Assembly: GCA_015490605.1 (NCBI GenBank)
Contig: WFXL01000037.1
Span: 1 to 34,177 of the forward strand
DNA: 34,177 nucleotides
Direction: 5' to 3'
Source: Rhodospirillales bacterium
Lineage (GTDB): Bacteria; Pseudomonadota; Alphaproteobacteria; Geminicoccales; Geminicoccaceae
A model generated the notes under the pieces. That model did no database searches and was not told where the DNA came from. It saw only the letters and a program-made list of their open reading frames with translations. This document shows positions 2,769-34,076 of this stretch, piece by piece. Each line of letters begins with the position of its first letter. The first letter of the stretch is position 1. The translations under genes and the position numbers were made by a program.

Positions 2769-3628
2769 GCTTGCGCTCCTTTTCGCGCGCTGGCGATGGT
2801 CCGGCGCGTTTCCGCCGGATCGAGGCCGGCGGCCCGTGCGGCGGCCGTGAGGACGGCCTCGGCTTCCGGCCAGTCCAGCCGCCCCTCGCGGCCGCGCGCC
2901 GCGGCCCAGAAGGCGTGGCGGTAGAGGGTGACGTTGCGGGTGCCCGGTCGCGCCCGTGCGAGCTCGGACGCCCGCTCCAGCAGCGCCTCGGTGGTCGCGT
3001 CGATGCGTTCGGCGGGCACGAGGTAACGGACCGTGACCGTCTTCGGCCGCGGCCTCGGCACGATCCGGCGCCGCCAGCGGCGCGGCAGCTCCGCGAGCCC
3101 CTCGTGCGGGTGGCGGATCCAGCGTCGGCGGGGCGTGCGCCGGCCGGTGGGCAGGGTGACGCAGCCGCCGCTGGCCTTGACGTCCAGCCCCGGCGCGAGC
3201 GGCTTTGAAGGGATGCGGTCGACACCCGCCGGCCAGCGAAAGAACAGGTGGCGGCCGCCTGTGGGCGTGGCGGCCTCCGCGGTGGGCGGCAGGCGCCCGA
3301 GCCGGCGCTCCAGATCACGCAGCGCCGCCGCCCCGTCGGCGCCGTGGCCGGCCGCGGTGTCCACGTCCAGCACCAGCACGCCGCTCTCGGGCCCGGTCAC
3401 CAGGGCGAGGGCGGCGTGCGGCCAACGGGCGAGCCAGCGCCGGAGGGTCGCGCGGTCGCCGGACGGCACGGCCCGCTCGGGCCAGCGGCGGATGAGCGGC
3501 ACCTTGTCCGGGCCGACCGGCACCAGCCGCCAGCGGGCGGTCTGGGCGTCGCCGTCCGCACCTGCACCACCCGAGGTTGAGCCCGCATCCGCCGGCGCGG
3601 GCGCGGGCGACTGGCTGTACGGTGTCAC
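2765..3628 (-). CDS. Bifunctional DNA primase/polymerase (prim-pol domain)
   Basis: I chose GTG 3626-3628 because GGGAGGA sits 6-7 nt upstream; the frame extends to 3715 but the extra residues look unlike coding sequence. The 287-residue product begins with a Pro/Ala/Gly-rich stretch of about 30 residues. It then shows prim-pol motifs: VPLIRRWPE near 43, the metal-binding DVD in VLVLDVDT (88-90), TPTGGRHLFF (121-130), and LDVKASGGCVTLP (148-160). The C-terminal third is Arg rich and ends in a helical region like the primase C-terminal domains of phage. It makes primers for element replication together with the overlapping D5 helicase. Confidence 0.88.
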   Translation of the reverse strand: MTPYSQSPAPAPADAGSTSGGAGADGDAQTARWRLVPVGPDKVPLIRRWPERAVPSGDRATLRRWLARWPHAALALVTGPESGVLVLDVDTAAGHGADGAAALRDLERRLGRLPPTAEAATPTGGRHLFFRWPAGVDRIPSKPLAPGLDVKASGGCVTLPTGRRTPRRRWIRHPHEGLAELPRRWRRRIVPRPRPKTVTVRYLVPAERIDATTEALLERASELARARPGTRNVTLYRHAFWAAARGREGRLDWPEAEAVLTAAARAAGLDPAETRRTIASARKGAQA

Positions 3629-3844
3629 CGGGCGTCCTCCCGTGCGGCCCCACCTCACTGTGGAGCGCGTCAGCGCGCAGTCGAGGTCGAGTTCCGCCGC
3701 CACCGATATTGGCACGACGACCGTCGCCCATGCAACGGCCCGTGTCGGCCGAAAACACTAAAAGCGTGGCATTTTATCAATCTAGAATTCTGGCTTCGCG
3801 ATGGTGATGCTATACATGCCCGCGGAGCACGGAGGAGACGCCCC
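3629..3844. promoter_or_regulatory. Divergent control region of the element
   Basis: These 216 nt separate the leftward replication genes from the rightward recombination/integration genes. The part from 3750 to 3820 is clearly AT-richer than its surroundings. It contains the palindrome AGAATTCT (3784-3791) and an imperfect inverted pair AAAAGC/GCATTTT (about 3760-3775) that could be operators. A phage repressor gene would be expected near such a region but none is encoded here. Confidence 0.5.
3788..3817 (+). promoter_or_regulatory. Putative rightward promoter
   Basis: TTCTGG (3788-3793) and TATACA (3811-3816) are separated by 17 nt. The -10 element is good and the -35 element weak. GGAGGAG at 3831-3837 and the ATG at 3845 follow at suitable distances. 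The overlap of the -35 box with the AGAATTCT palindrome would allow repression. Confidence 0.45.
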
Positions 3845-4129
3845 ATGCATCACAATACTGTGGTGCACACCCGCATTGCATGCATCGACATGACACGCCG
3901 TGACACGCCGGGACACACCCGGAGGCGCCGCGGTGCTCAACCCCCGGTCGTGCAGCCCGGGGCCGCCGTGCGCTTCGCCTGGTGCGGGCGCGCCTGCCGC
4001 GGCGTGGTGCTGCAGGATCTCGGCACGGGCCGCGCTACCGGGCTGCGCCGCTTCCTGATCCGCAGCCGCGACCTGCCCGGCCGCGATCTGGTCCTGCTCT
4101 ACGAACACGAGATCGCGGAGGCGGCATGA
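3845..4129 (+). CDS. Small element protein, unknown function
   Basis: The 94-residue product starts at an ATG behind GGAGGAG, the first gene of the rightward block. The N-terminus is rich in His, Thr and Arg. Residues about 30-90 are more regular, with alternating hydrophobic positions such as AAVRFAWCGRACRGVVLQD and VLLYEHEI, which could be a small beta-barrel. I do not recognise a family. The stop overlaps the next ATG (ATGA), indicating coupling. Confidence 0.6.
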   Translation: MHHNTVVHTRIACIDMTRRDTPGHTRRRRGAQPPVVQPGAAVRFAWCGRACRGVVLQDLGTGRATGLRRFLIRSRDLPGRDLVLLYEHEIAEAA

Positions 4130-4446
4130 GCGGCGTGCCGGTGCCCATGCCCACACCCCACGAGCTGCGCGCCGCCCGCGAACGCAGCCTGTCGGAGGTC
4201 GGCCGAGCCCGTCTGATCGAGCGGCTGTGGCACGGGCTCGGCCACCGCGACGTGCGGGTGTGGGTGGCGCGGGAACACGGACGGCAGGTGGTGCGCTCCA
4301 ACCTGATCAACGGCCTGCCGCCCTCGGCCCTGGGGCTCGCGGAGATGGTGGACTGGCAGGGCGTGGCCGCGCGCCTGCGCGGGCGCCTCGCCGAGGAGGA
4401 ATGGGAACGGCTGGTGCGGGAGCACACGGCATGGAAGGCGGCCTGA
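4126..4446 (+). CDS. Small element protein, unknown function
   Basis: The start ATG overlaps the preceding stop. The 106-residue product is helical and charged, with HELRAARERSLSEVGRARL at 12-30 and a tail ending in RLVREHTAWKAA. No catalytic motif or signal peptide is visible. The nuclease gene starts inside its last codons (16-bp overlap). It may be a DNA-binding or accessory protein of the recombination module, but nothing in the sequence proves this. Confidence 0.6.
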   Translation: MSGVPVPMPTPHELRAARERSLSEVGRARLIERLWHGLGHRDVRVWVAREHGRQVVRSNLINGLPPSALGLAEMVDWQGVAARLRGRLAEEEWERLVREHTAWKAA

Positions 4447-5381
4447 GGATCACGGAACCCGGCCTCTACCGGGACGTGCCTGATGCGGACTACCACGCGG
4501 ATCCGTGTCCCGAGCCGTCGCTCTCCTCGACCCTCGCCAAGGTGCTGCTCTCGCGCTCGCCGCTGCACGCGGCGGTGCGCCACCCCAGGCTCGCGAAGCG
4601 GCAACAGTGCGAGGAGAAGGCGGCCTTCGACCTCGGCCGGGTGGCGCACGCACTGCTGCTGGGCAGGGGTGCGGACTTCGCGGTGATCGACCACGAGGAC
4701 TGGCGCACGAAGGCCGCCCGCGAGGCCCGCGACGAGGCGCGGGAACAGGGGCTCACGCCCATCCTCCGCCCCCAGTTCGAGCAGGCCGAGGCGATGGTGG
4801 CCTCGCTGCGCGACCAGCTTCGGCAGCACGAGTGCGCCGGCGCCTTCGAGGGCGGGCTCGCCGAAGCCACGCTGGTCTGGCGCGAGGAAAACGGCGTCTG
4901 GTGCCGGGCGCGGATCGACTGGATGCCGGATCCGCCGACCGACGGCATCGTGATCTACGACTACAAGACCACCTCCGCCTCGGCCGAGCCCGCGGCCTTC
5001 GGCGGCCGCAACCTCTTTGCCCTCGGCTACGACATCCAGGCGGCCTTCTACCTGCGCGGCATCGGCGCGGTGCTCGGGATCGGGGATGCCCGCCTGCGCT
5101 TCGTGGTGCAGGAGACCGAGGAACCCTTCGCCGCCACGGTGCTGGAGATCGGCCCCGGCTCGCTGGCCATGGCCGGGCGGCAGGTCACGAAGGCCATCGA
5201 GGTGTGGGGCCGGTGTCTGGAGACCGGCATCTGGCCCGCCTATCCGCCCCGCGTCTGCCACGTCGAGGCGCCGGCCTGGCACGAGCACCGGGTGCTCGAT
5301 GCCGAGGCGCGCGAGACCGAGTTCGGCGACGTGTTGGACCAGTACATCGCCGCGTTCGCACCCGGCGGAGAGGCGGCATGA
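4431..5381 (+). CDS. PD-(D/E)XK exonuclease, DUF3799/RecE-like
   Basis: The 316-residue protein opens with GLYRDVPDADYH and SLSSTLAKVLLSRSPLH, as in DUF3799/RecE C-terminal nucleases of phage. Motifs of the RecB-like fold follow in order: GRVAH (His 73), E145 in AEATLVW, D163 in ARIDW, DYK (177-179) in IYDYKTT, and QAAFY with Gln 203. These are the metal-binding and catalytic residues of the family. Partnered with the Sak4-type ATPase two genes further on, it would resect double-stranded ends for annealing-type recombination. Length fits the family. The longer open frame back to 4227 overlaps the previous gene and is not used. Confidence 0.87.
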   Translation: MEGGLRITEPGLYRDVPDADYHADPCPEPSLSSTLAKVLLSRSPLHAAVRHPRLAKRQQCEEKAAFDLGRVAHALLLGRGADFAVIDHEDWRTKAAREARDEAREQGLTPILRPQFEQAEAMVASLRDQLRQHECAGAFEGGLAEATLVWREENGVWCRARIDWMPDPPTDGIVIYDYKTTSASAEPAAFGGRNLFALGYDIQAAFYLRGIGAVLGIGDARLRFVVQETEEPFAATVLEIGPGSLAMAGRQVTKAIEVWGRCLETGIWPAYPPRVCHVEAPAWHEHRVLDAEARETEFGDVLDQYIAAFAPGGEAA

Positions 5382-5692
5382 GCGGCCGCCGCGACTTGGC
5401 GCGTATCTGGCTCGCGCTCGCCTTCCGCCATCTGGATGTCGCCGAGGCGGCCGACCGGACCATGGGCCTGCTGCCGAGCCGACACGTGGCCCTGATGGAT
5501 CTCGCGGCCACCTCCGAGATCGAGGCGCTGGAATGTCTCGTCGAAGCCGCGCGCCACGCCGGCCTGGGCGACAGGCATGTCCGCCGCGTCCTGACCGTGG
5601 CCCTCATGGGCGCGGACTGGGGGTTGGATCCCGGTCGTGCGCGCCGGATGGTGCGGCGGACGGCGCGGCTCCTGTTCCGGGAGGAGCAATGA
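5378..5692 (+). CDS. Small element protein, unknown function
   Basis: The ATG overlaps the nuclease stop (ATGA). The 104-residue product is predicted helical, with LARIWLALAFRHLDVAEAADR at its start and an Arg-rich end (RARRMVRRTARLLFREEQ). Hydrophobic positions are spaced as in amphipathic helices rather than membrane spans. No family recognised. Its place between nuclease and annealing ATPase suggests an accessory of that module. Confidence 0.6.
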   Translation: MSGRRDLARIWLALAFRHLDVAEAADRTMGLLPSRHVALMDLAATSEIEALECLVEAARHAGLGDRHVRRVLTVALMGADWGLDPGRARRMVRRTARLLFREEQ

Positions 5693-6084
5693 CCGCCTTC
5701 GCCATCCGCCACGCCCACACCGGCCTGTTCTACGCCGGGACCACCCCGATGCTCCGGATCACCGTCTGGCGCCGCCGGCCGCGCGACGCTGCGCTGTTCG
5801 CCACCGAGTCCGAGGCGTGGGCGGCGGCGGCCGGCCTCGGCACGGCCCTCGCCGGGGCGGTGGAGGTGGTGCCGGTTCGGGCCCGCGGGCTGGCGCCCAT
5901 GGACGACCTGTTCGAACGGAATGCGGGGGCCGCGGCGTCTCCCACGGCCGGTGGCCGGCACGGCCGCGACGCCCGTCCTGCCTCGCGTCGCGTCCCCCCG
6001 GGTGCTCAGCAGGCGCGACGCAGTGGGTCAATCCGCGCCGCGGGGCAACTGTCTGGCGGCAAGGGCGGGAAGCCGGCGGCATGA
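5689..6084 (+). CDS. Small element protein, unknown function
   Basis: The start ATG lies in the stop of the previous gene, with GGGAGGAG just upstream. The first ~80 of 131 residues look structured (AFAIRHAHTGLFYAG, ESEAWAAAAGLGTAL), of the type seen in short phage proteins. The last ~45 residues are low-complexity Arg/Gly/Ala/Pro and may be disordered. No family recognised. A 66-nt gap without a gene follows. Confidence 0.55.
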   Translation: MTAFAIRHAHTGLFYAGTTPMLRITVWRRRPRDAALFATESEAWAAAAGLGTALAGAVEVVPVRARGLAPMDDLFERNAGAAASPTAGGRHGRDARPASRRVPPGAQQARRSGSIRAAGQLSGGKGGKPAA

Positions 6085-6150
6085 CCGGAGGTCGAGCGGC
6101 GGGCAGGACATCGTTCCTGTCCGCCGCCGCCCACATCGGAGAAACGGGCC

Positions 6151-6390
6151 ATGGATACGGATCGCGTGCTGGACCATGCCGTGCAGATCCGCGCCGCCAT
6201 GGAACGCGCGCGGGCCTGCGTGATCGGGATCCTCGGCGACATGCCGGTCGAGCTGGAGCGCGTCGTCGCGGACGACCGGATCCGGGACGTTCTCGTGAGC
6301 GGCCTCGTGCGGGCGGTAGCGAACGCCCTCGTGCACATCGAGGACGCCGCCGCGCACGCGGAGCACATCGGCAGGGAGCTTTGCCCATGA
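6151..6390 (+). CDS. Small helical element protein, unknown function
   Basis: The 79-residue product starts at ATG behind GGAGA. It is almost entirely helix-forming, with hydrophobic positions spaced in heptads (VLDHAVQIRAAMERARACVI, LVRAVANALVHIEDAAAHAE), suggesting a small helical bundle or oligomer. Its stop overlaps the start of the ATPase gene (ATGA), so the two products are made together and may interact. Confidence 0.6.
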   Translation: MDTDRVLDHAVQIRAAMERARACVIGILGDMPVELERVVADDRIRDVLVSGLVRAVANALVHIEDAAAHAEHIGRELCP

Positions 6391-7460
6391 GCTTCACCTT
6401 CCGTCCCGCCACGCGCGAGAATGCGCGGCTGCTGATCGGTCTCTGCGGCCCCTCGGGCGGCGGCAAGACCCTCTCCGCGCTGCGCCTCGCGACGGGCCTT
6501 GCCGGCGGCGGCGAGATCGTGGTGATCGACACCGAGCGCGGGCGGGCGGCCCAGTACGCCGCCCCGCCCGGCGGCCCGCCCAACCCGCCGGAAAGCTATG
6601 CCTTCCTCGTGGGCGCCTTGGAGCCGCCCTTCACCCCGGCCCGCTACCGCGAGGCCCTGGAGGCCGCCTACGCCCGCGGGCCCGCGGTGGTGATCATCGA
6701 CTCCATGTCCCACGAGTGGGAGGGGCCGGGCGGCATCCTCGAGATGGTGGACCGGATCAAGGCCGAGCGGAAGGTCAACGACTTCGCTGCCTGGGCGAAG
6801 CCCAAGCAGGAGCACCAGAAGCTGGTCAACACGCTGCTCCAGGCCCCCTGCCACCTGGTCCTGTGCATGCGCGCCAAGGAGAAGCGCACGCTGGTGCGGG
6901 ACACCCATGGACGCACCGAGGTGGTGGATGCCGGCTGGGCGCCCATCTGCGAGCCCAACCTCACCTACGAGCTCACCGTCAACATGCTGCTGGGGCCCGT
7001 CGGCAAGGGCGTGCCCACGTTCGACTTCGACCACGGCAAGCTTCCCGCCAACATGAAGGGCCTGTTCCGTGAGGGGGAGCGGATCACCGAGGCCCTCGGC
7101 GAACGCCTTGCGGCGTGGTGTCGTGGATGTGCCGGGCCCGGGGACGTGGAGGAGGGAGCGCGGCAGCCGGCGGCAGAACCGGCCGCCGCGCCTAAGCGCC
7201 GACCGCTCGTCGTCTACACGGCTTCCGGACAGCCGGCCTCCAGTGTCATGCGCGCCGCCGACTGGCTGGAGGCGTACCGGGCCGAGCTCGCACGCACGCC
7301 TGCGGAGCTGCGCGACGCCTTCATGGGGAAGAACCTGGGAACCCTGCGCGACCTCGCCGCTCGGGCCGAACGGAAGGCCCCGCCGGAGCTGCGCGAGGCC
7401 TTCGCCCGAGAGCTGGCCGCGGCCGAGGCGGCGCTGCGGGATGCGGAGGATGCGGCATGA
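6387..7460 (+). CDS. Sak4-type RecA-fold ATPase, single-strand annealing
   Basis: The 357-residue protein has Walker A GPSGGGKT at 21-28, an acidic strand VVIDTERG near 45-52, and Walker B VVIIDS at 101-106. The sequence around it (DSMSHEWEGPGG, then a WAKPKQEHQ-like stretch and LVLCMRAKEK) is typical of AAA_24/Sak4 phage ATPases, which are RecA/Rad51-like and promote annealing. The last ~100 residues after the ATPase core are a Pro/Ala linker and charged helices. With the DUF3799-type nuclease it forms a phage recombination pair. Confidence 0.82.
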   Translation: MSFTFRPATRENARLLIGLCGPSGGGKTLSALRLATGLAGGGEIVVIDTERGRAAQYAAPPGGPPNPPESYAFLVGALEPPFTPARYREALEAAYARGPAVVIIDSMSHEWEGPGGILEMVDRIKAERKVNDFAAWAKPKQEHQKLVNTLLQAPCHLVLCMRAKEKRTLVRDTHGRTEVVDAGWAPICEPNLTYELTVNMLLGPVGKGVPTFDFDHGKLPANMKGLFREGERITEALGERLAAWCRGCAGPGDVEEGARQPAAEPAAAPKRRPLVVYTASGQPASSVMRAADWLEAYRAELARTPAELRDAFMGKNLGTLRDLAARAERKAPPELREAFARELAAAEAALRDAEDAA

Positions 7461-7801
7461 GCGGCGACGTGGTGCTTCGGGCGGCGAAGCGCGCCGTAGG
7501 ACTGGTCGACGAGGACGCCCGCGAGGCCACGCCGGTGGAGGCCATGCTCGCCCATGCCTTCGCCCTGGTCGCGGTGTCGGAGGCGGTGTCGTCGCCCGCG
7601 GAAGACCCCGACTGCGATCCGGCCGATGCGGCGGCTCTCGTCATCCTCGGGGCCGCCACGCAGCTGGGCGGCAGACTGCCGGAGCGCGACGGCCTCGGCT
7701 ATCCCCGCCGGCTCGTCGCCTATCTGGTGGGCCACGCCCTGCGGACCGGCATCATCCACAGCCTGCGCGCGGAGAGGGAACATGAACCGCGAACGGAATG
7801 A
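7457..7801 (+). CDS. Small element protein, unknown function
   Basis: The 114-residue product starts in the stop of the ATPase gene. It is alanine-rich and helical (PVEAMLAHAFALVAVSEAV, ADAAALVILGAATQLG), ending in a basic helix. The hydrophobic stretches are interrupted by charges, so I do not call membrane spans. Family unknown. Confidence 0.55.
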   Translation: MSGDVVLRAAKRAVGLVDEDAREATPVEAMLAHAFALVAVSEAVSSPAEDPDCDPADAAALVILGAATQLGGRLPERDGLGYPRRLVAYLVGHALRTGIIHSLRAEREHEPRTE

Positions 7802-7907
7802 AATGCGGCGGCCGGTCCTCCGCGCCTGGGCCACACCCGCCGGCGCCGCGGTGGTGGTCGAGGACACCCGGGAGGAAGCGGGAGAATGTCCACGCCGCGC
7901 CTGCTGA
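7782..7907 (+). CDS. 41-residue element protein, unknown function
   Basis: The ATG at 7782 has GGAGAGGG a few nt upstream and lies within the end of the preceding gene. The product contains RPVLRAWATPAGAAVVVEDT, a plausible beta strand pair, and its stop lies 22 nt into the excisionase-like gene. Too short for family assignment; support comes from the ribosome binding site and the tight overlap pattern. Confidence 0.4.
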   Translation: MNRERNEMRRPVLRAWATPAGAAVVVEDTREEAGECPRRAC

Positions 7908-8158
7908 CCGAGATCGAGACGGCCCATCTCGCCGGCTTCCGCCGCTTCCGCGACTTCCGGCGGGCCCTGCGCGCGGGACGCTTTCCTCAACCCGACGTTG
8001 AGCTTCCCGACGGGCCGCGGTGGTCCGAGGCGAGTTTAACGCGCTTGCTGGACGCTTCGCCTGGTTCCGGGTCTCATGCCGGCGCGGAGGGAAGCGTGAT
8101 CGAGAGGATGCGTCGCCGTGCGGAAAAAGCCGCGTCATCTCACGACACGGGTCCGTAA
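7886..8158 (+). CDS. Excisionase/AlpA-like DNA-binding protein
   Basis: The 90-residue product has the pattern of small winged-helix excisionases: TPRLLTEIETAHLAGF near the start, RDFRRALRAGRFPQPD in the middle, and RWSEASLTRLLD around 45-57. In that family these form the recognition helix, the wing with 'G.fP.P', and the closing helix. It lies directly upstream of the integrase, whose GTG start it overlaps by 41 nt. It would direct the integrase towards excision and might repress the integrase promoter. The assignment is by pattern and position. Confidence 0.65.
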   Translation: MSTPRLLTEIETAHLAGFRRFRDFRRALRAGRFPQPDVELPDGPRWSEASLTRLLDASPGSGSHAGAEGSVIERMRRRAEKAASSHDTGP

Positions 8159-9197
8159 CGGGCGGATCGCGTACTACTGGCAGCCCTCGGCGAGCCTGAA
8201 GCGCCTCGGCTTTCGTCTGCGCCGGCTTTCCGACGATCCGGCGATCGCATGGCGCGAGGCCGAGGAACTCAATGCCGAGGCCGACCGGTACCGTGAGCTG
8301 GTCGGCACAGATCCAACAGGACACCCAAGACCCGGCACCATCCGGTGGCTCGCGGCGCAATTCAAGTCGCATGACGATTATCTGGCCCTTTCCGAGAGAA
8401 CGCGCGACGACTATGCAAGATTCCTAGATATGATCTGCACCCTGATAGGGGACGAGCGGATTGAAGATATCACGCCACCTGTCGTGGCCGAGATGAAGCG
8501 TCTAGGAAAGGACAAGCCATGGCAGACCAACTATATGCTCCGCGTTTTGCGGTTGCTGTTCAGCTTCGGCATCCGCGAAGGCTACTGCACGACAAATCCT
8601 GCCCGCGGCTTTCGCCAGTTGCGTACACGGCCACGGGAAGCTGTGTGGACGCACGAGCAGGAGAAGCGCTTTCTCGCCGCGTGCGAGGAGATGGGCCGGC
8701 CGTCGGTCGCGCTTGCATACCGGATCGCCATCTGGACGGCGCAGCGGCAGGCGGACGTGCTGCGGCTGTCATGGACGGACTACCACGACGGGGCGCTTCA
8801 TGTGCGGCAGAGCAAGACCGGACGGCCGGTGGTGATTCCCGTCATCGGGCCCCTAGCCGAAGCGCTTGAAGCGGCGCCACGCGTCGCCACGGTGATCGTG
8901 GCGGACGAGCGCGGCCTGCCTTGGAAGGCATACCACTTTCGCCACGTGTTCAAGCGCATCATGCGCGCGGCCGGCATCGAGGGCGTGCGGTTCCAGGATC
9001 TGCGCCGCACCGCCATCGTGCGGCTTGCCGAGGCCGGCTGTACCGTGCCGGAAATCGCCGCCATCAGCGGCCACCAGATCGACTACTGCCAGCGCATCCT
9101 GGAGGTGTACCTGCCGCGCACCCGGCGCCTGGCTGAGCGGGCGGTGGTCAAGCTGGTGCGGAACGAAACCGGTACGCGAGGCCGAGCCGGAGTCTAA
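8118..9197 (+). CDS. Tyrosine recombinase (phage integrase)
   Basis: The start is GTG 8118 behind GAGAGG. The 359-residue protein has an N-terminal arm-binding region (1-75), a core-binding helical domain (75-170) and a C-terminal catalytic domain. Catalytic residues are Arg 210 (WTAQRQADVLRLSW), Lys 233 (RQSKTG), Arg 296 (FQDLRRTA), His 319 (SGHQ) and the nucleophile Tyr 331 (LEVYLPRT). The box II His is Gln 293; substitution at this place is, to my memory, common in this alphaproteobacterial integrase group and need not abolish activity. The gene points at the tRNA-Arg 3' end 48 nt away, which fixes the attachment site. Confidence 0.93.
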   Translation: MRKKPRHLTTRVRNGRIAYYWQPSASLKRLGFRLRRLSDDPAIAWREAEELNAEADRYRELVGTDPTGHPRPGTIRWLAAQFKSHDDYLALSERTRDDYARFLDMICTLIGDERIEDITPPVVAEMKRLGKDKPWQTNYMLRVLRLLFSFGIREGYCTTNPARGFRQLRTRPREAVWTHEQEKRFLAACEEMGRPSVALAYRIAIWTAQRQADVLRLSWTDYHDGALHVRQSKTGRPVVIPVIGPLAEALEAAPRVATVIVADERGLPWKAYHFRHVFKRIMRAAGIEGVRFQDLRRTAIVRLAEAGCTVPEIAAISGHQIDYCQRILEVYLPRTRRLAERAVVKLVRNETGTRGRAGV

Positions 9198-9220
9198 CGC
9201 GGTGTCTAACGAGTCTAACG
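9192..9220. repeat. Three GTCTAACG direct repeats by the attachment site
   Basis: GTCTAACG occurs at 9192-9199, 9204-9211 and 9213-9220, the first overlapping the integrase stop. Closely spaced short repeats next to the core site are typical arm-type binding sites for tyrosine recombinases. The function is inferred. Confidence 0.55.
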
Positions 9221-9244
9221 CGCGGTGGCTAAGCCCTTGAAAAT

Positions 9245-9321
9245 TGGTGCGCCCGGCAGGATTCGAACCTGCGACCCCCGGATTAGGAATCCGATGCTCT
9301 ATCCTGCTGAGCTACGGGCGC
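9245..9321 (-). tRNA. tRNA-Arg (anticodon CCU)
   Basis: On the minus strand the gene begins GCGCCCGTAGCTC and ends with the pairing CGGGCGC, discriminator A and an encoded CCA (9245-9247). The anticodon loop is TTCCTAA, giving CCU, and the T loop is GGTTCGAATCC. The 3' half is the likely attB/attR of the element: integrase and repeats lie immediately beyond it, and the tRNA is intact. Confidence 0.95.
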
Positions 9322-26817: not shown

Positions 26818-27726
26818 TCACGGGCGACCGGCGGCGGACTGGGGTTTTGGCGGCTGGGCGTGCGCCCGCATGGCCTTTTCGCGCCGGGTCCCATCCCCTT
26901 CTCCCAGCAGCCCCGGGCTCGGTGCATCCGGGCGGCGGAAGGGCTGGGTGAGCAGGCGGTCGAGCCGCTGTTCGGCCGGTTCGCGGAAGATCCGCAGCCC
27001 CACCACCATGCCCTCGTGGCCCGCGCGCGGCTGGGCGCGGTAGGTGCCGAACAGCCGGTCCCAGATGGCCAGGGCGAAGCCGAAGTTGCGATGGTGTTCG
27101 TCGGGATGGACGGAATGGTGCACCCGGTGCATGTCGGGGGTGACCACCACCAGCCGCAGCAGCCGGTCGACCCGCGGCGGCAGATGCAGATTGGCGTGGT
27201 TGAAGAGGCTGCTGGCATTGAGCAGCAGTTCGAACAGCACCACCGCCTCGGCCGGTGCTCCCAGGGCCGCCACCACCGCCATCTTGAGCAGCATGGACAG
27301 CAGGATCTCGATGGGATGAAAGCGCACGCCGGTGGTGGTGTCGATCTCGGGATCGGCATGGTGCACCCGATGGAGCCGCCACAGCGCCGGCACCGCATGG
27401 AACAGGACGTGCTGGAGATAGACGGCGAGATCCAGCAGTATGATTGAGGCCACCAGCACAAGCCCGTAGGGCAGATCGAGCCGGTGGAAAAGGCCGAAGC
27501 CGCGGGCTTCGGCCACAAGCGCCACCCCCACCGCCAGCACCGGCAACAACAGCCGCAGCACCAGCGCGTCCACCACCACCAGCCCGAGATTGCCGCTCCA
27601 GCGCAGCAGTCGCGGCAGCTCCCGCCGGCGCCGTGGGGCCAGCGCTTCGGCTATGGCCATCGCCGCCAGCACGCCCAGGAACACGGTGGTGCGTATGAGC
27701 GCTTCCTGCTGGACCAGCAGATCCAT
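26818..27726 (-). CDS. Sterol desaturase/fatty acid hydroxylase-family membrane protein
   Basis: I chose ATG 27724-27726, which follows GGAGAGGCGGG. The 302-residue protein has four to five membrane segments and the histidine clusters of the di-iron FA_hydroxylase family: HVLFH, HRVHHAD, NHANLH and HRVHHSVHPDEHHRNFG. These would bind two irons at the membrane face and oxidise a lipid chain. The last ~40 residues are hydrophilic, Arg/Pro-rich. Substrate unknown; its position upstream of fabD/fabG supports a lipid role. Confidence 0.88.
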   Translation of the reverse strand: MDLLVQQEALIRTTVFLGVLAAMAIAEALAPRRRRELPRLLRWSGNLGLVVVDALVLRLLLPVLAVGVALVAEARGFGLFHRLDLPYGLVLVASIILLDLAVYLQHVLFHAVPALWRLHRVHHADPEIDTTTGVRFHPIEILLSMLLKMAVVAALGAPAEAVVLFELLLNASSLFNHANLHLPPRVDRLLRLVVVTPDMHRVHHSVHPDEHHRNFGFALAIWDRLFGTYRAQPRAGHEGMVVGLRIFREPAEQRLDRLLTQPFRRPDAPSPGLLGEGDGTRREKAMRAHAQPPKPQSAAGRP

Positions 27727-27752
27727 CCCGCCTCTCCGCGCGATCACGGCGA

Positions 27753-27781
27753 GATATCGGCCGCCTGCCGCCGCCGGCCAA
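27753..27781 (-). promoter_or_regulatory. Putative promoter of the hydroxylase-family gene
   Basis: On the minus strand TTGGCC (27776-27781) precedes GATATC (27753-27758) with 17 nt between, 26 nt before the ATG. Both boxes are partial matches. The rest of the 132-nt divergent gap to dctP shows only the dctP ribosome binding site. Confidence 0.3.
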
Positions 27782-27858
27782 GGGGCGCCCTTGCCACCCC
27801 GCGGGCGCTCCGCTTGAATGACGGCGCTCACCGAAAGTCGGGAAGGAGGAGCTCCACC

Positions 27859-28872
27859 ATGACCAGGCTCACGCGTCGCACGCTGCTCACCGGGACCGCC
27901 GCGGTGGGGGTGCTCGCCCTGGCCGGTGTCCGCGTTGCCCGCGGCGAGATCACCATCAAGTTCAGCCACGTGGTCTCCCCCAAGGGCCATCCCAAGGGCG
28001 AGGCGGCGCAGCTGTTCGCCGACTGTGCCAACGAGAAGCTCGCCGGCAAGGCCAAGGTCGAGGTCTATCCCAACTCGCAGCTCTATAACGACAACAAGGT
28101 TCTCGAGGCGATGCTGCTGGGCGACGTGCAGTTCGCCGCGCCGTCGCTGTCGAAGTTCGAACGTTTCACCAAGAAGTACCGCATCTTCGACCTGCCGTTC
28201 CTGTTCGAGAACGAAGAGGCGGTGCTATGCTTCATGCGCAGCAGCACCGGCCAGAAGCTGCTCCGTGCCATGGATGACAAGGGGCTGCTCGGTCTGGGCT
28301 ACTGGATGAACGGCATGAAGCAGCTCTCGGCCAACAAGCCGTTGCTGGTGCCGGAGGACGCCAAGGGCCTCAAGTTCCGCATCCAGCAGTCGGACGTGCT
28401 GGCGGCACAGTTCGAGGCGCTCGGTGCGGTGCCGCAGAAGATGGCCTTCGCCGAAGTCTACGGCGCCCTGCAGCAGGGGGTGGTGGACGGCCAGGAGAAC
28501 ACCTACACTAACATCTACACCAAGAAGTTCTACGAGGTCCAGGACGGCCTCACCGAGACCAACCACGGCGTCATCGCCTATCTGGTGGTCACCAGCCGCG
28601 AATGGTGGGAGGGGTTGCCGGAAGACATCCGCAGCGTCCTTGAGGAGTGCATGGCCAAGGCCACTGATTATGCCAACAGCAAGGCCTCGGAGCTCAACCA
28701 GCAGGCCAAGCAGAAGCTCATCGAGGCGGGCGTGACCATCCGCACCCTCACGCCCGAACAGCGTCAGCAGTGGGTCGAGGTGATGAAGCCGGTGTGGGCC
28801 AAGTTCGAGGCTGACATCGGCCGCGATGTGATCGAGGCGGCGCTGGCGGCCAATCAGGGCAAGTGCGACTGA
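27859..28872 (+). CDS. dctP: TRAP transporter substrate-binding protein, DctP family
   Basis: The start ATG is preceded by GGAAGGAGGAG. The 337-residue protein has a signal peptide with a Tat-like TRRTLLTG motif, a hydrophobic stretch, and a probable cleavage after VARG near residue 30. The mature part shows the DctP pattern (KFSHVVSPKGHPKGEAA, EVYPNSQLYNDN, KGLKFRIQQSDV with the conserved carboxylate-binding Arg, and ENTYTNIYTKKFYEVQ). These closely resemble C4-dicarboxylate binders, so malate, succinate or fumarate is likely. It is followed by dctQ and dctM. Confidence 0.92.
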   Translation: MTRLTRRTLLTGTAAVGVLALAGVRVARGEITIKFSHVVSPKGHPKGEAAQLFADCANEKLAGKAKVEVYPNSQLYNDNKVLEAMLLGDVQFAAPSLSKFERFTKKYRIFDLPFLFENEEAVLCFMRSSTGQKLLRAMDDKGLLGLGYWMNGMKQLSANKPLLVPEDAKGLKFRIQQSDVLAAQFEALGAVPQKMAFAEVYGALQQGVVDGQENTYTNIYTKKFYEVQDGLTETNHGVIAYLVVTSREWWEGLPEDIRSVLEECMAKATDYANSKASELNQQAKQKLIEAGVTIRTLTPEQRQQWVEVMKPVWAKFEADIGRDVIEAALAANQGKCD

Positions 28873-28885
28873 TCCCGACGCAGGT

Positions 28886-28907
28886 GGGGCCGGCTCTGGC
28901 CGGCCCC
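28886..28907 (+). other. Intercistronic hairpin between dctP and dctQ
   Basis: GGGGCCGG (28886-28893) pairs with CCGGCCCC (28900-28907) around a 6-nt loop. No T-run follows. Such hairpins after the binding-protein gene are known to protect or partly terminate transcripts, so that binding protein exceeds permease. Confidence 0.6.
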
Positions 28908-28930
28908 GCGGCCGTGGGAGGGAGGATGCC

Positions 28931-29491
28931 GTGGAAACGCGGCCGGAACGGCGGCGCCTGGCCGCCTGGGTGGAGGCGCTGGAGCAGACCGTGATCGCCG
29001 TGCTGTTCGCGGCGATGGTGCTGGTCACCTTCGTCCAGGTGGTGCTGCGCTATCTGTTCAACGCCGGATTCCTGTGGGCGCTGGAGTTCACCACCTTCGC
29101 CTTTGCCTGGCTGGTGCTTTTCGGTGTTGCCTATGGCGTCAAGCACGCCGTCCATCTCGGTGTGGACGCCTTCGTGCGGCTGTTTCCCACCCCGGTCCAG
29201 CGGATCTTCGCGCTGCTGGCGGTGCTGGCGGGCCTCGCCTACGCTGGCATCATGCTCGCCGGTGCCTGGGAATATGTCAGCAAGCTCTACCGCATCGGCA
29301 TTCATGCGACGGACCTGCCGATTCCCCGCTGGATCCCCTACAGCATCCTGGTGGTGGGGATGGTGCTGATGATCCTGCGGCTGCTGCAGGCGGGCTTCGA
29401 GATCATCCAGGGCCGCCGCACCAGCCTGCTGGCGGATGAGGCCCGCGGCACCATCCGCGAGCTGCTGGGCGAAGAGGGGCAGGGGCGCTGA
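28931..29491 (+). CDS. dctQ: TRAP transporter small permease, DctQ family
   Basis: The start is GTG 28931 behind GGAGGGAGGA. The 186-residue protein has four membrane helices: about 18-40, 50-70, 90-115 and 130-155. The segment FVQVVLRYLFNAGFLWALEF near 32-51 matches the conserved Q..R...N....E signature of DctQ. It ends 3 nt before the dctM start. Confidence 0.92.
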   Translation: METRPERRRLAAWVEALEQTVIAVLFAAMVLVTFVQVVLRYLFNAGFLWALEFTTFAFAWLVLFGVAYGVKHAVHLGVDAFVRLFPTPVQRIFALLAVLAGLAYAGIMLAGAWEYVSKLYRIGIHATDLPIPRWIPYSILVVGMVLMILRLLQAGFEIIQGRRTSLLADEARGTIRELLGEEGQGR

Positions 29492-29494
29492 CCC

Positions 29495-31045
29495 ATGGCC
29501 ATCGCCACCCTCTTCGGTCTTCTGTTCCTGCTGCTGCTGATCGGCACGCCCATCGCCATCGCCCTGGGGCTCAGCAGCGTCGTCACCATTCTTCTGTTTT
29601 CCGACGACAGCCTCGCCTCCATCGCGCTCAAACTGTTTGAGACGATGGAGCACTATACGCTCCTGGCGATTCCCTTCTTCATCCTGGGCTCGGCCTTCCT
29701 GACCACCGGCGGCGTGGCCCGCCGGCTGATCCGTTTTGCGATTGCCAGCGTCGGCCATCTCCGCGGCGGCCTCGCCATGGCCGGGGTGCTGGCGTGCATG
29801 CTGTTCGCCGCCGTCTCCGGCTCCTCGCCGGCCACGGTGGTGGCCATCGGTTCGATCGCCATCGCCGGCATGGTGCGGGCCGGCTACCGGCTGGATTTTG
29901 CCGCCGGCGTCATCTGCACCGCCGGCACGCTGGGGATTCTGATCCCGCCCTCCATCGTCATGGTGGTCTATGCCGCCGCCACCGACCAGTCGGTCGGGCG
30001 GCTGTTTCTCGCCGGCGTGATCCCGGGCATCGTCGCCGGGCTCATGCTCATGTTCACCATCTGGTGGCGCGCCCGCCGGCTCGACCTGCCGCGCCAGCCG
30101 CGGGTTTCCTGGCGTGCCTGGTTCGAGGGGCTGGGCGAGTCCATCTGGGGGCTGCTGCTGATCATTATCATCATGGGCGGCATCTATGGCGGCATCTTCA
30201 CCCCCACCGAAGCGGCCGCCGTCTCCGCCGTCTATGCCTTCCTCATCGCCCATTTCGTCTATCGCGACATGGGGCCGCTCGCCGCCGCCGGCGACGGCAT
30301 GCCCAGCACCCACGGCATCGCCCTCTTGGCGCTGTTGGCGCTGCTGGCGCTCGTGGCCGGCTGGAGCAGCGGTGTCTTCGCACCGACGGCCGCCGCCGGC
30401 GGTCTGCTGGCGCTGGCTGCGGTGGTGCTCGCCTACGGGCTACTGGCGCCGCGGGCCGGCATCGAGCACCCCTATGGCGCACTCGCGCGTTCGCTCGGGG
30501 AGTTCCTGCTCCATCTCGGCCCCGCCCTGGTGCACCGCGACACCCGGCGGGTGATGGTGGAGGCGGGGCGCACCACCATCATGCTGATGTTCATCATCGC
30601 CAATGCGATGATCTTCGCCCACGTGCTCACCACCGAGCGGATTCCCCACACCATCACCCAGTGGATCGTGAGCCAGGGTTTCTCCTGGTGGACGTTCCTG
30701 ATCGTGGTCAACCTGCTGCTGCTGATCGCCGGCAACTTCATGGAACCCTCGGCGATCCTGCTGATCATGGCGCCAATCCTGTTCCCCATCGCCCTGGAGC
30801 TGGGGATCGACCCGATCCACCTGGGAATCGTCATGGTGGTCAACATGGAGGTGGGGATGATCACGCCGCCGGTGGGGCTCAATCTCTTCGTCACCTCGGG
30901 GATCACCGGCATGAGCGTGATGGAGGTGGTGCGCGCTGCCCTGCCTTGGCTCATGGTGCTGCTCGCCTTTCTGGCCCTGGTCACCTACGTGCCACCGCTC
31001 TCCACCCTGCTGCCCGACCTCCTCTACGGCCCGCTGCGGATCTAG
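29495..31045 (+). CDS. dctM: TRAP transporter large permease, DctM family, enlarged
   Basis: The 516-residue membrane protein carries the substrate and ion path. DctM signatures are present: LLAIPFFILGSAFLTTGG near 57-73, AAVSGSSPATVVAIG near 105-119, GTLGILIPPSIVMVVYA near 144-160, GIFTPTEAAAVSAVYA near 233-248, and GMITPPVGLNLFV near 447-459. It is about 90 residues longer than the usual ~426; the extra part lies near 258-345 and adds two hydrophobic spans (about 274-290 and 298-317). Confidence 0.94.
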   Translation: MAIATLFGLLFLLLLIGTPIAIALGLSSVVTILLFSDDSLASIALKLFETMEHYTLLAIPFFILGSAFLTTGGVARRLIRFAIASVGHLRGGLAMAGVLACMLFAAVSGSSPATVVAIGSIAIAGMVRAGYRLDFAAGVICTAGTLGILIPPSIVMVVYAAATDQSVGRLFLAGVIPGIVAGLMLMFTIWWRARRLDLPRQPRVSWRAWFEGLGESIWGLLLIIIIMGGIYGGIFTPTEAAAVSAVYAFLIAHFVYRDMGPLAAAGDGMPSTHGIALLALLALLALVAGWSSGVFAPTAAAGGLLALAAVVLAYGLLAPRAGIEHPYGALARSLGEFLLHLGPALVHRDTRRVMVEAGRTTIMLMFIIANAMIFAHVLTTERIPHTITQWIVSQGFSWWTFLIVVNLLLLIAGNFMEPSAILLIMAPILFPIALELGIDPIHLGIVMVVNMEVGMITPPVGLNLFVTSGITGMSVMEVVRAALPWLMVLLAFLALVTYVPPLSTLLPDLLYGPLRI

Positions 31046-31185: not shown

Positions 31186-31800
31186 ATGTACGAAGCCCTG
31201 GGACTCGACGCCCAGCGAACCATCCTGATCGCCATCATGTTGGCGCTCGGGGTAGCGGGCATCGCCGCCCTGTTCGTCGGCCTCTTCGCTCGCACCAAGA
31301 TACGATTACCCTACAGCGCCGAAGTGGGCTTTGTGGCCCTGCTGGTGGGGTTGCTGATCTATGGCGATGCCACCAGCACCTCCACCTACCGCGCCTATGA
31401 GGCGCTGCTGCCGCGGGAGGGCGAGGTCGGTGTCGCCGACGAGGCGCCCGCCGGTCAGTTCGACAAGAATGTGCGGGTGCTGGCCTTCCAGTGGGGCTTC
31501 CTGTTCTTCGACGGCGACAAGGCCCTGCGCAATGTGGTGCAGGTGCCGCCCGGCGCGCGGGTGCTGTTCCGCATCGGTGCAAGCGATGTGATCCACGGCT
31601 TCAATGTGCCTGCCGCCAGCATCACCGCCGAGCTGGAGCCGGGCGAGACCCGCTATGTCTGGCTGCGGGCGCCGGATCGTCCGGGCAAGTACCTGATCCA
31701 GTGCCTCAACTACTGCGGCCTTGGCCATGCGCAGATGAAGGCATGGCTGGTGGTGGGCGAACCCGCCGAGGAGGATCACGACGGGGCTGAGGAGGCGTGA
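31186..31800 (+). CDS. Heme-copper oxidase subunit II with CuA site
   Basis: I use ATG 31186, preceded by AGGGGAGGGG, rather than an upstream in-frame start. The 204-residue protein has two membrane segments (about 12-34 and 46-60), then a periplasmic cupredoxin domain. The CuA ligands are His 137 (DVIHGF), Cys 173, Cys 177, His 181 and Met 184 in CLNYCGLGHAQM. FQWGFLF near 101-107 is the aromatic electron-entry region. It takes electrons to subunit I, encoded 3 nt downstream. It lacks the C-terminal cytochrome c domain. Confidence 0.9.
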   Translation: MYEALGLDAQRTILIAIMLALGVAGIAALFVGLFARTKIRLPYSAEVGFVALLVGLLIYGDATSTSTYRAYEALLPREGEVGVADEAPAGQFDKNVRVLAFQWGFLFFDGDKALRNVVQVPPGARVLFRIGASDVIHGFNVPAASITAELEPGETRYVWLRAPDRPGKYLIQCLNYCGLGHAQMKAWLVVGEPAEEDHDGAEEA

Positions 31801-31803
31801 ACC

Positions 31804-33387
31804 ATGGTCGCTGCGACCCACGACAACAACCGGGACATCGATGCTGCCCGCTGGGATCCGAAGGATCTTCTGGCGGAACTCGACCTGCGGCGGTTGCTGT
31901 TCTCCGACGACTACCGCATGATCGCCCTCAAGGGGCTGCTCCTGTCGCTGTCCATGCTGGCCCTGGCCGGGACCTTCGGCCTCACCTTCCGGGCCGAACT
32001 CACCGCGCCCGACATCCAGTTCTTTGGCGCGCGGCCTTACATGAACCTCATGACTCTCCACGGGATGCTGATGGTCTTCGGCTTTCTCATCCCGTTCGTG
32101 ATCTCGCTATGCTATTATGTCATGCCGCGCGTGCTGGGCACCGAGCGCCTCGAATGGCCGGCACTGGCCCACGCCAGCTGGTGGCTGCTGGTGGTGGCGG
32201 CGGTGCTGCTGATCATCGGCCGGCCCGACTTCACCTGGACCTTCTATGCCCCCATGAGCCTGCGCGTGGGCGGTCCGCTGGTGTGGATGGGCTATCTCGC
32301 CATCGTGCTGGTGGCCATTTCCGAGTTCCTGGCGGGGCTGGTGCTGCTGCGCAGCGCGCTGGCCTGGCGCGGAAGCTGGCGCGATTGGCCGCTCATGGGC
32401 TGGGGCATGATGACCGAGGGGGTGATGCTGCTGTTCTCGACCCCGGCCCTGGGGCTGGTGGGCCTGTTGCTGTTCACCGATTGGCTCACCCTCACGGCGG
32501 TGTTCGATCCCTCCCGCGGTGGCAGCACCACCACCTTCCTGTGGCTGTTCTGGTTCTATGGTCATCCGGCGGTCTATCTGCCGCTGGTGCCGGCCATCGC
32601 CCTGATCTACACGCTGCTGCCGCGCTTTCTCGCCCGGCCGCTGTGGAGCAAGATCTCGGCCATCATCGCCTTTCTTACCCTGTTGGTGCTCTCCTTCGGC
32701 GTGTTTCACCACCATTTCCAGCCGGTGGTGAATGAGCACACCTGGGTGCAGCGGGCATTCCAGATCCTCACGCTGCTGATCTTTATCCCCAGCGCACTGC
32801 ATGTGTTCAACTGGGTGGCCAGCCTGCTGGAGGGGCCGATCCCACGGGAAGGCCGTGAGGCGATTCCGTTCAAATTCATCATCGGGTCGATCTTCTTCAT
32901 CATCATCGGCGGCGTGGTTGGATATATCAACGCCCAGATCGCCATCAATACGGAGTTCATTCATAATACCTATTGGATCCCGGGGCACTTCCATGCCATG
33001 TTCCTCGGGTTCTGCGCGCAGGTGGGAATGGCAGCGCTATATTACCTCTATCCATACTTCACGGGACGGATGTACAACCAGCGCCTCGCCAACCTGCACT
33101 TCTGGCTGTGGCAGGTGGGCATCTTCGGCCAGGTGATGACCATGTACGCCCTCGGCTATGCCTTCTTCCCGCGGTGGGTGGTGGACTATCTGCCCATCCC
33201 CCTGTGGAGCTCGCTGCAGTTCTGGCTCACCGTCAGCGTGACCCTGGTGGGCCTGGGTTTCGTGGTGCTGGCCTGGAACCTCCTGTGGAGCTATCGCCGC
33301 GGTGAGGTGGTGACCCGGGATCCGTGGGCCATCAAGCCCGCGGCCGAGGCGGCGCGTCCCGAGGCGGTTCCGGCGGCGGGAGAGTGA
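31804..33387 (+). CDS. Heme-copper oxidase subunit I
   Basis: The 527-residue protein has about twelve membrane helices. Heme and copper ligands are His 86 (TLHGMLM; low-spin heme), His 254 with crosslink Tyr 258 in GHPAVY (CuB), the pair among His 302-304 in FHHHFQP (CuB), and His 395/His 397 in PGHFHAM (high-spin and low-spin hemes). The Tyr supports O2 rather than NO reduction. The Glu of the usual HPEVY motif, which gates the D channel in A1-type oxidases, is Ala 256, and no YS motif replaces it (FYGHPAVY), so proton uptake probably uses another route, as in B-type enzymes. Heme type cannot be told. Confidence 0.93.
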   Translation: MVAATHDNNRDIDAARWDPKDLLAELDLRRLLFSDDYRMIALKGLLLSLSMLALAGTFGLTFRAELTAPDIQFFGARPYMNLMTLHGMLMVFGFLIPFVISLCYYVMPRVLGTERLEWPALAHASWWLLVVAAVLLIIGRPDFTWTFYAPMSLRVGGPLVWMGYLAIVLVAISEFLAGLVLLRSALAWRGSWRDWPLMGWGMMTEGVMLLFSTPALGLVGLLLFTDWLTLTAVFDPSRGGSTTTFLWLFWFYGHPAVYLPLVPAIALIYTLLPRFLARPLWSKISAIIAFLTLLVLSFGVFHHHFQPVVNEHTWVQRAFQILTLLIFIPSALHVFNWVASLLEGPIPREGREAIPFKFIIGSIFFIIIGGVVGYINAQIAINTEFIHNTYWIPGHFHAMFLGFCAQVGMAALYYLYPYFTGRMYNQRLANLHFWLWQVGIFGQVMTMYALGYAFFPRWVVDYLPIPLWSSLQFWLTVSVTLVGLGFVVLAWNLLWSYRRGEVVTRDPWAIKPAAEAARPEAVPAAGE

Positions 33388-33389
33388 CC

Positions 33390-34076
33390 ATGATCCTGCG
33401 CGTCTGGCTCGGTTTCACCGTGGTGTTGCTGGTGGTGGCGTGGTATCTGGCGCTGCCGGCATCCCCCGCCCCCTATCAGGCGAGTCCGACGAGCTTCGTC
33501 GGTGCCTTCGTCGAGCGCGGGCTCGTGCCCAAGCCCGACCATTATGTGGAGGATGAAGAGCTGGAGCACGAGGTGTTCGAGATCCCGGCGGAAGATGCCG
33601 CCCGCGTGCCGGAAGGGGCCGGCGAGGGGCTCGCGGTGTTGCTGCAGGGGCGTGAGGGCGAGGTGCGCGACAAGCTCGCCACGCTCCAGCTGGACCGCAC
33701 CATTGAGCTCGCCATGGAGGAGTGGGGTTTCGACCCCGGCCGGGTGCAGCTCAAGGCCGGCGAGACGGTGGCGCTGGTGATCGAGAATACCGGCAACATC
33801 CCCCACGAATTCATGATCATGGCCGATGCCGCCATGAAGGGGGTGAACTACCGGCTTGCCCGCGCCGACTGGAACCTCACCGAACATGAGGCGGTGGCGG
33901 AACAGAGCTTCCTGCTGCCGGGCGAGCGCATGGTGATGGTGGTGCGGGCGGACAAGCCCGGCATGTGGATGTTCATGTGCATGTTCCCCTACCACATGCA
34001 GCTGGGCATGATGGGCATGCTCATGGCCGCGGTTGAGGAAGGTGGCATGCCCATGGGCGGTGATATGAAGATGTAG
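33390..34076 (+). CDS. Membrane-anchored blue-copper (cupredoxin) protein
   Basis: The 228-residue protein has an N-terminal membrane anchor (about 4-22), an acidic, probably flexible linker (about 50-100) and a C-terminal cupredoxin domain (about 104-213). Type 1 copper ligands are His 139 (IPHEF), Cys 197, His 202 and Met 207, in CMFPYHMQLGM. The C-x4-H-x4-M spacing is that of rusticyanin/sulfocyanin, which feed terminal oxidases. It starts 2 nt after the oxidase subunit I stop. The tail is Met-rich (MPMGGDMKM), as in copper-handling proteins. It may donate electrons to CuA or deliver copper; both are inference. Confidence 0.85.
   Translation: MILRVWLGFTVVLLVVAWYLALPASPAPYQASPTSFVGAFVERGLVPKPDHYVEDEELEHEVFEIPAEDAARVPEGAGEGLAVLLQGREGEVRDKLATLQLDRTIELAMEEWGFDPGRVQLKAGETVALVIENTGNIPHEFMIMADAAMKGVNYRLARADWNLTEHEAVAEQSFLLPGERMVMVVRADKPGMWMFMCMFPYHMQLGMMGMLMAAVEEGGMPMGGDMKM

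Follow-up and report, generated by a model that had tools for sequence, protein, structure and literature searches.

A rare three-gene cassette couples a cupredoxin with a predicted membrane anchor to a heme-copper oxidase in alphaproteobacteria

Oxidase-linked cupredoxins are already known in the form of AcoP and halocyanin. AcoP of Acidithiobacillus (PDB 7z3b, 7z3f, 7z3g and 7z3i) is a membrane-anchored cupredoxin encoded in an oxidase operon, found to co-purify with the oxidase and to exchange electrons with cytochrome c4 (PMC4059628, PMC5982212). A halocyanin-domain gene directly adjoins the genes for the CuA subunit and subunit I of a plasmid-borne ba3 oxidase in Haloarcula pelagica (L062 2577-5999), although the pairing is not universal, with none annotated beside the Halomicrobium oxidase. 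Here we describe a cupredoxin gene at the end of a 34,177-nucleotide stretch of DNA (the window) from a Rhodospirillales bacterium of the Geminicoccaceae (assembly GCA_015490605.1). The window is the complete contig WFXL01000037.1 (C37) of a 2.19-Mb genome that is 89% complete. The original prediction, made from the sequence alone, regarded the protein as a dedicated cupredoxin with rusticyanin-like ligand spacing, linked to the oxidase encoded directly upstream and possibly replacing cytochrome c as its donor. The gene coordinates, ligand numbering and location right behind subunit I given at that time were correct. We find that the cupredoxin belongs to a fixed three-gene cassette and that AcoP is the closest functional precedent for the protein.

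Searches made with both the cupredoxin and subunit I as queries identified seven separate cassettes, that of the window and those designated G001, G024, G037, G395, L017 and L018. The genomes represent three GTDB families plus two Kiloniellaceae metagenome-assembled genomes (L017 and L018). The gene order, CuA subunit, subunit I and then cupredoxin, is the same in all seven, and in those six for which the gap was read, 2-29 bp separate the subunit I stop codon from the cupredoxin start. In a sample of 385 genomes from the class the oxidase and the cupredoxin co-occur in the same three and neither was found elsewhere at the thresholds used; no solo cupredoxin copies were detected in this sample at E <= 1e-20. 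The co-occurrence of the two genes rules out chance proximity as an explanation, and strongly supports the view that the cupredoxin is dedicated and linked to the oxidase. Neither of the outcomes named in the original prediction as refuting it, a gene usually missing beside this oxidase or ligands that vary among orthologues, was observed. The oxidase is encoded by 3 of the 31 genomes in the family and by two of the four in the window's genus, one of the two that lack it being 99% complete. A wider sample of the phylum (398 genomes, E <= 1e-75) contained no oxidase of the cassette type beyond the window's own, and plasmid records held no close relative of the cassette, the best cupredoxin matches displaying ∼33% identity and the best oxidase match 34%. 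The cassette is thus rare, patchy in its distribution and strictly coupled. Because the contig ends 101 bp after the cupredoxin stop codon, only relatives can show what lies further downstream. Open reading frames read by eye, with no profile-library scan, at four related loci whose sequence continues past the cassette (L017, L018, L026 and L054) included no recognisable genes for subunit III, Sco, CtaG or a c-type cytochrome beside the cassette. This agrees with the earlier statement that subunit III, assembly factor and c-type cytochrome genes are absent from the vicinity, which in the window itself covers only the 101 bp downstream.

The cupredoxin displays matches above curated Pfam cut-offs to Cu-oxidase_2 (5.6e-10), Cupredoxin_1 (6.5e-9) and Copper-bind (2.2e-6). 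The His-Cys-His-Met type 1 ligand set (H139, C197, H202 and M207) is invariant in all seven proteins, showing that the copper site is not a chance pattern. The orthologues are 47-57% identical to the window protein, whose models match known cupredoxin folds. These data uphold the complete type 1 site originally proposed, as well as the conservation of its ligands, and the protein probably binds one type 1 copper. The PHEFM motif, residues of the YRxxRADWNLxEH type and the C-x4-H-x4-M loop are also invariant. At the N-terminus, residues I2, R4, W6, L7, A17, W18, L20 and P23 are invariant in the six full-length proteins that were aligned, and P26, Q30-A31, S35, G44 and H60-x-VFE in the adjoining juxtamembrane region are conserved among these six. 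The hydrophobicity of the segment and the helix modelled by AlphaFold at residues 2-21 point to a probable membrane anchor, in keeping with the original prediction, or less probably to a cleaved signal peptide. The helix is followed in the window protein by a linker of ∼76 residues (16 acidic and 6 basic), longer than the acidic stretch of ∼50 residues first described. The linker is short, acidic and almost devoid of Met and His in the window, G001 and G024, but comprises 123-171 residues with 11-17 Met in G037, G395, L017 and L018. The acidic linker is therefore not a general feature of the family but a lineage-specific one, the more distant orthologues having a Met-rich linker. All seven proteins end in a Met-rich, MKM-type tail. 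The mean AlphaFold confidence (pLDDT) was 66 for the full-length protein and 75.6 for the domain alone.

Among solved structures auracyanin, from Chloroflexus and Roseiflexus, leads the sequence matches (profile E 2.4e-6) and is the best Foldseek match, and its ligands display the same C-x4-H-x4-M spacing. It differs from the window protein in serving photosynthetic chains, shares only 19-25% identity in structure alignments, and no linkage to an oxidase was evident in this analysis. The AlphaFold models match auracyanin, AcoP, EfeO, nitrosocyanin and other cupredoxins about equally (Z within about 2), and thus fold alone does not decide function. AcoP stands near the top of the fold matches, at Foldseek ranks 2-3 and with VIA Z 9.6-11.4, values that do not separate it from other cupredoxins. 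Like the window protein it consists of a single cupredoxin domain with an N-terminal membrane helix (predicted in the window protein) and an H-C-H-M site, encoded by an oxidase-operon gene. Its ligands H85, C159, H166 and M171, however, are arranged as C-x6-H-x4-M (PMC4059628), compared with C-x4-H-x4-M in all seven proteins described here. Furthermore, the identity in structure alignments is 17-24%, and AcoP works with cytochrome c4 and is encoded in an operon for a whole iron-oxidation pathway, whereas the cassette is without such a pathway. Rusticyanin has the same Cys-His-Met spacing as the window cupredoxin, and also its fold (VIA Z 8.7). The rusticyanin label was not sustained, as model TIGR03095 matches only one of the seven proteins (E 0.0015) and leaves the window protein unmatched, which rules out membership of that group. 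Rusticyanin is a periplasmic protein that is not membrane-anchored (PMC5982212); the conserved N-terminal helix of the window protein points to an anchor or, less probably, to a cleaved signal. The view that this spacing implies oxidase feeding is weak because C-x4-H-x4-M is common to auracyanin and CopI-like proteins.

CopI, a copper-resistance protein, is the closest NCBIfam model for all seven cupredoxins (2e-11 for the window protein, far under the cut-off), the scores of 44-45.5 and 16-18 bits falling short of thresholds of 280 and 200, respectively. The two proteins share C-x4-H-x4-M spacing, and NTGKVDHEFM in CopI resembles NTG-x2-HEFM in the cassette cupredoxins; their gene neighbourhoods differ. 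An internal His/Met-rich segment of CopI is needed for copper resistance (PMC13308877), but at this position the cassette proteins have the invariant YRxxRADWNLxEH and no His/Met motif. The low scores and the absent segment rule out CopI membership. A PCuAC copper chaperone was also discounted, as the type 1 ligand set includes a Cys, which is lacking in the H(M)x10Mx21HxM site of PCuAC (PMC9145763). By the tests made, the cupredoxin is neither rusticyanin, AcoP nor CopI.

The oxidase itself is also atypical. The heme and CuB ligands of subunit I are invariant and the active-site Tyr is retained; the CuA motif of subunit II is present in all seven cassettes, the best solved-structure match for this subunit being the Thermus ba3 CuA domain (4.9e-16). 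The positions that correspond to Asp124, N113, N131, Glu278 and Lys354 of A-type enzymes are occupied by R/K, Y, A, A and H, respectively, in all seven, and the D- and K-channel residues characteristic of A-type enzymes are thus missing. B-type oxidases use an alternative K-channel comprising Tyr-I, Tyr, Ser and Thr (PMC3084760). The cassette enzyme contains Tyr-I, the second Tyr and the Ser (Ser291 is replaced by Tyr and Thr351 by Ser) but His substitutes for the Thr, at the K354 position, in all seven, and at this position it departs from the B-type definition. Like ba3 enzymes, it has no D-channel acids, contains the channel Tyr and Ser, and has a subunit II nearest to that of Thermus; it differs in the channel His and in the two hydrophobic stretches of subunit II. 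The active-site block shares 38% identity with Thermus ba3, against 25% with the genome's own A-type enzyme. In a tree of full-length subunit I sequences the seven form a well-supported clade of their own, closer to A-types than to the three B-types included, but long-branch warnings mean that the tree leaves the A/B placement open. Subunit I is possibly more unusual than the cupredoxin. The same genome also has genes for a CtaC-CtaD oxidase that keeps E278 and K354, and for a cbb3 oxidase that includes c-type subunits. The cassette enzyme is therefore a third heme-copper oxidase in a cell that does not lack cytochrome c, and at most the donor of this enzyme alone would be replaced.

On balance, the most likely role of the cupredoxin, and one that we judge somewhat more probable than not, is that of a membrane-tethered partner of the CuA subunit in electron transfer. 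The three genes would encode a terminal oxidase module in which the cupredoxin, tethered on the periplasmic side of the membrane, acts as a resident partner or subunit that accepts electrons from a periplasmic donor. Electrons would then pass from the cupredoxin to CuA, to heme and finally to the heme-CuB centre, the site of O2 reduction. This is consistent with the adjoining position of the two genes in seven of seven genomes, their restriction to the same 3 of 385 genomes in the class sample and the invariant ligands, and with sequence and fold matches led by auracyanin, an electron carrier, and including AcoP. Conservation also extends beyond the ligands to a surface comprising YRxxRADWNLxEH, HDVFEVP and the predicted anchor helix, which points to a fixed partner protein, and the Met- and aromatic-rich ligand loop, WMFMCMFPYHMQLGMMG, would suit a hydrophobic docking patch. 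Other B-type operons, with donors of a known type in the corresponding place, fit a donor role but do not prove it. A B-type operon in Methylobacterium includes genes for two c-type cytochromes and Sco, while the Haloarcula pelagica locus resembles the cassette in its adjoining cupredoxin gene; the latter differs in being archaeal, in the location of halocyanin upstream of subunits II and I, and in its canonical B-type channel residues. A stronger proposal is that the cassette represents a distinct heme-copper oxidase subtype, a permanent three-part enzyme in which electrons enter through the tethered cupredoxin as an integral subunit, instead of through a c-type cytochrome, and the catalytic subunit lacks A-type channels and has a K-channel His. 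This we advance only tentatively, as it is rather less likely to be correct than not.

Several observations weigh against an electron-transfer role. Similarity of fold is no proof of function, CopI is the nearest NCBIfam model for every member, and AlphaFold confidence is low in the region of the ligand loop. Furthermore, the Met-rich linkers of four orthologues and the Met-rich tails of all seven suggest copper binding beyond a single redox site. A copper-handling role is a serious rival, although we consider it unlikely. The cupredoxin, together with its Met-rich linker or tail, would bind copper in the periplasm and supply it to CuA and/or CuB, taking the place of Sco/PCuAC-type factors, or would buffer the metal around the oxidase as does CopI. 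In addition to the model match and the NTG-x2-HEFM motif, the best tblastn matches are CopI-like plasmid proteins (31-33% over the domain), which lie in or near copper-resistance genes at two of the three loci read. AcoP, a functional analogue, is induced by copper and a chaperone-like role has been proposed for it (PMC7463520). Conversely, the segment that CopI requires is replaced by an invariant sequence of a different character, the type 1 site is unlike that of PCuAC, and the 11-17 Met of the longer linkers have no counterpart in the window, G001 and G024, where the linker is nearly free of Met and His. A strict one-to-one tie to a single type of oxidase is also less natural for general copper protection.

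It is improbable, though less so than mere co-inheritance, that the protein is primarily a structural or protective subunit, which binds the periplasmic face and keeps the oxidase active or stable, the copper site being secondary. Such a role was first suggested for AcoP, which is purified together with cytochrome c oxidase and brings back activity to enzyme that has been partly destabilised (PMC4059628, PMC5982212), and fixed binding would fit the conservation of both the predicted anchor helix and the juxtamembrane segment. The invariance of four copper ligands among orthologues 47-57% identical to the window protein, however, suggests a need for copper chemistry. That the cupredoxin is a bystander, inherited along with the oxidase genes but having no action on the oxidase, is very improbable. 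The patchy spread in the genus and family is compatible with a mobile cassette, but association in all seven cases across distant families, the short intergenic gaps and the lack of solo copies in the class sample argue against this explanation.

The features of the locus are listed in Table 1. TRAP transporter genes, encoding the solute-binding and the small and large membrane components, lie directly upstream of the oxidase (window 27484-31045); similar genes, identified by eye, are also near the oxidase in G395 (L054 1498-4448), which may be coincidence. Small secreted-looking open reading frames with clustered Met and Cys, possibly copper-related, lie a short distance before subunit II in G037 (L026 5976-6365) and L017 (5173-5655), and no comparable frame is present within 140 bp upstream of the window subunit II. 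By eye, the G037 cassette adjoins apparent F-type ATP synthase genes (L026 6922-11470). A second, weak cupredoxin-like match in the window's genome (contig C95, L029 2906-3334, E 0.045) is near beta-propeller and ABC-transporter-like genes. At the other end of the window, a phage integrase gene (8118-9197) adjoins tRNA-Arg (9245-9321), and replication-type genes of the D5_N and Prim-Pol families are present at 1407-3715; the region 1407-9321 looks like an integrated element.

Table 1. Positions in the window of the oxidase and cupredoxin genes and of the parts of the cupredoxin
Feature	Position	Strand	Basis
Oxidase subunit II; two hydrophobic stretches; CuA domain with HGFNVP and CLNYCGLGHAQM	31186..31800	+	Pfam COX2 3.7e-10
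Oxidase subunit I, 527 aa; heme and CuB ligands, active-site Tyr (GHPAVY); no D-channel Asp/Glu; channel Lys replaced by His	31804..33387	+	Pfam COX1 3.4e-89, residue table, tree
Cupredoxin gene, 228 aa, product predicted to be membrane-anchored; ATG 2 bp past subunit I stop	33390..34076	+	ORF, Pfam
Predicted N-terminal membrane helix, residues 1-23	33390..33458	+	AlphaFold helix 2-21; alignment
Putative periplasmic linker; conserved juxtamembrane part, then variable stretch	33462..33683	+	Alignment
Cupredoxin domain (residues 99-216) and Met-rich tail ending MKM	33684..34073	+	Pfam, AlphaFold domain model pLDDT 75.6, fold matches
Copper ligand H139 within invariant PHEFM	33804..33806	+	Alignment
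Copper ligand loop C197-x4-H202-x4-M207 (CMFPYHMQLGM)	33978..34010	+	Alignment

The new elements in this system are the fixed three-gene cassette in alphaproteobacteria, and a cupredoxin outside the rusticyanin, AcoP and CopI groups that is paired with an oxidase containing a His-substituted channel. A description of the cassette was not found in the open-access full-text literature, a search that left subscription journals mostly outside its scope. The best-known membrane cupredoxins tied to oxidases are those of acidophilic iron oxidisers and archaea, while the hosts described here are alphaproteobacteria that are not evidently acidophilic. The cassette thus provides a small, testable system in which to ask whether a tethered copper protein can take over from cytochrome c as the point of entry to CuA, and whether a heme-copper oxidase whose channel Lys or Thr is replaced by His can function or pump protons.
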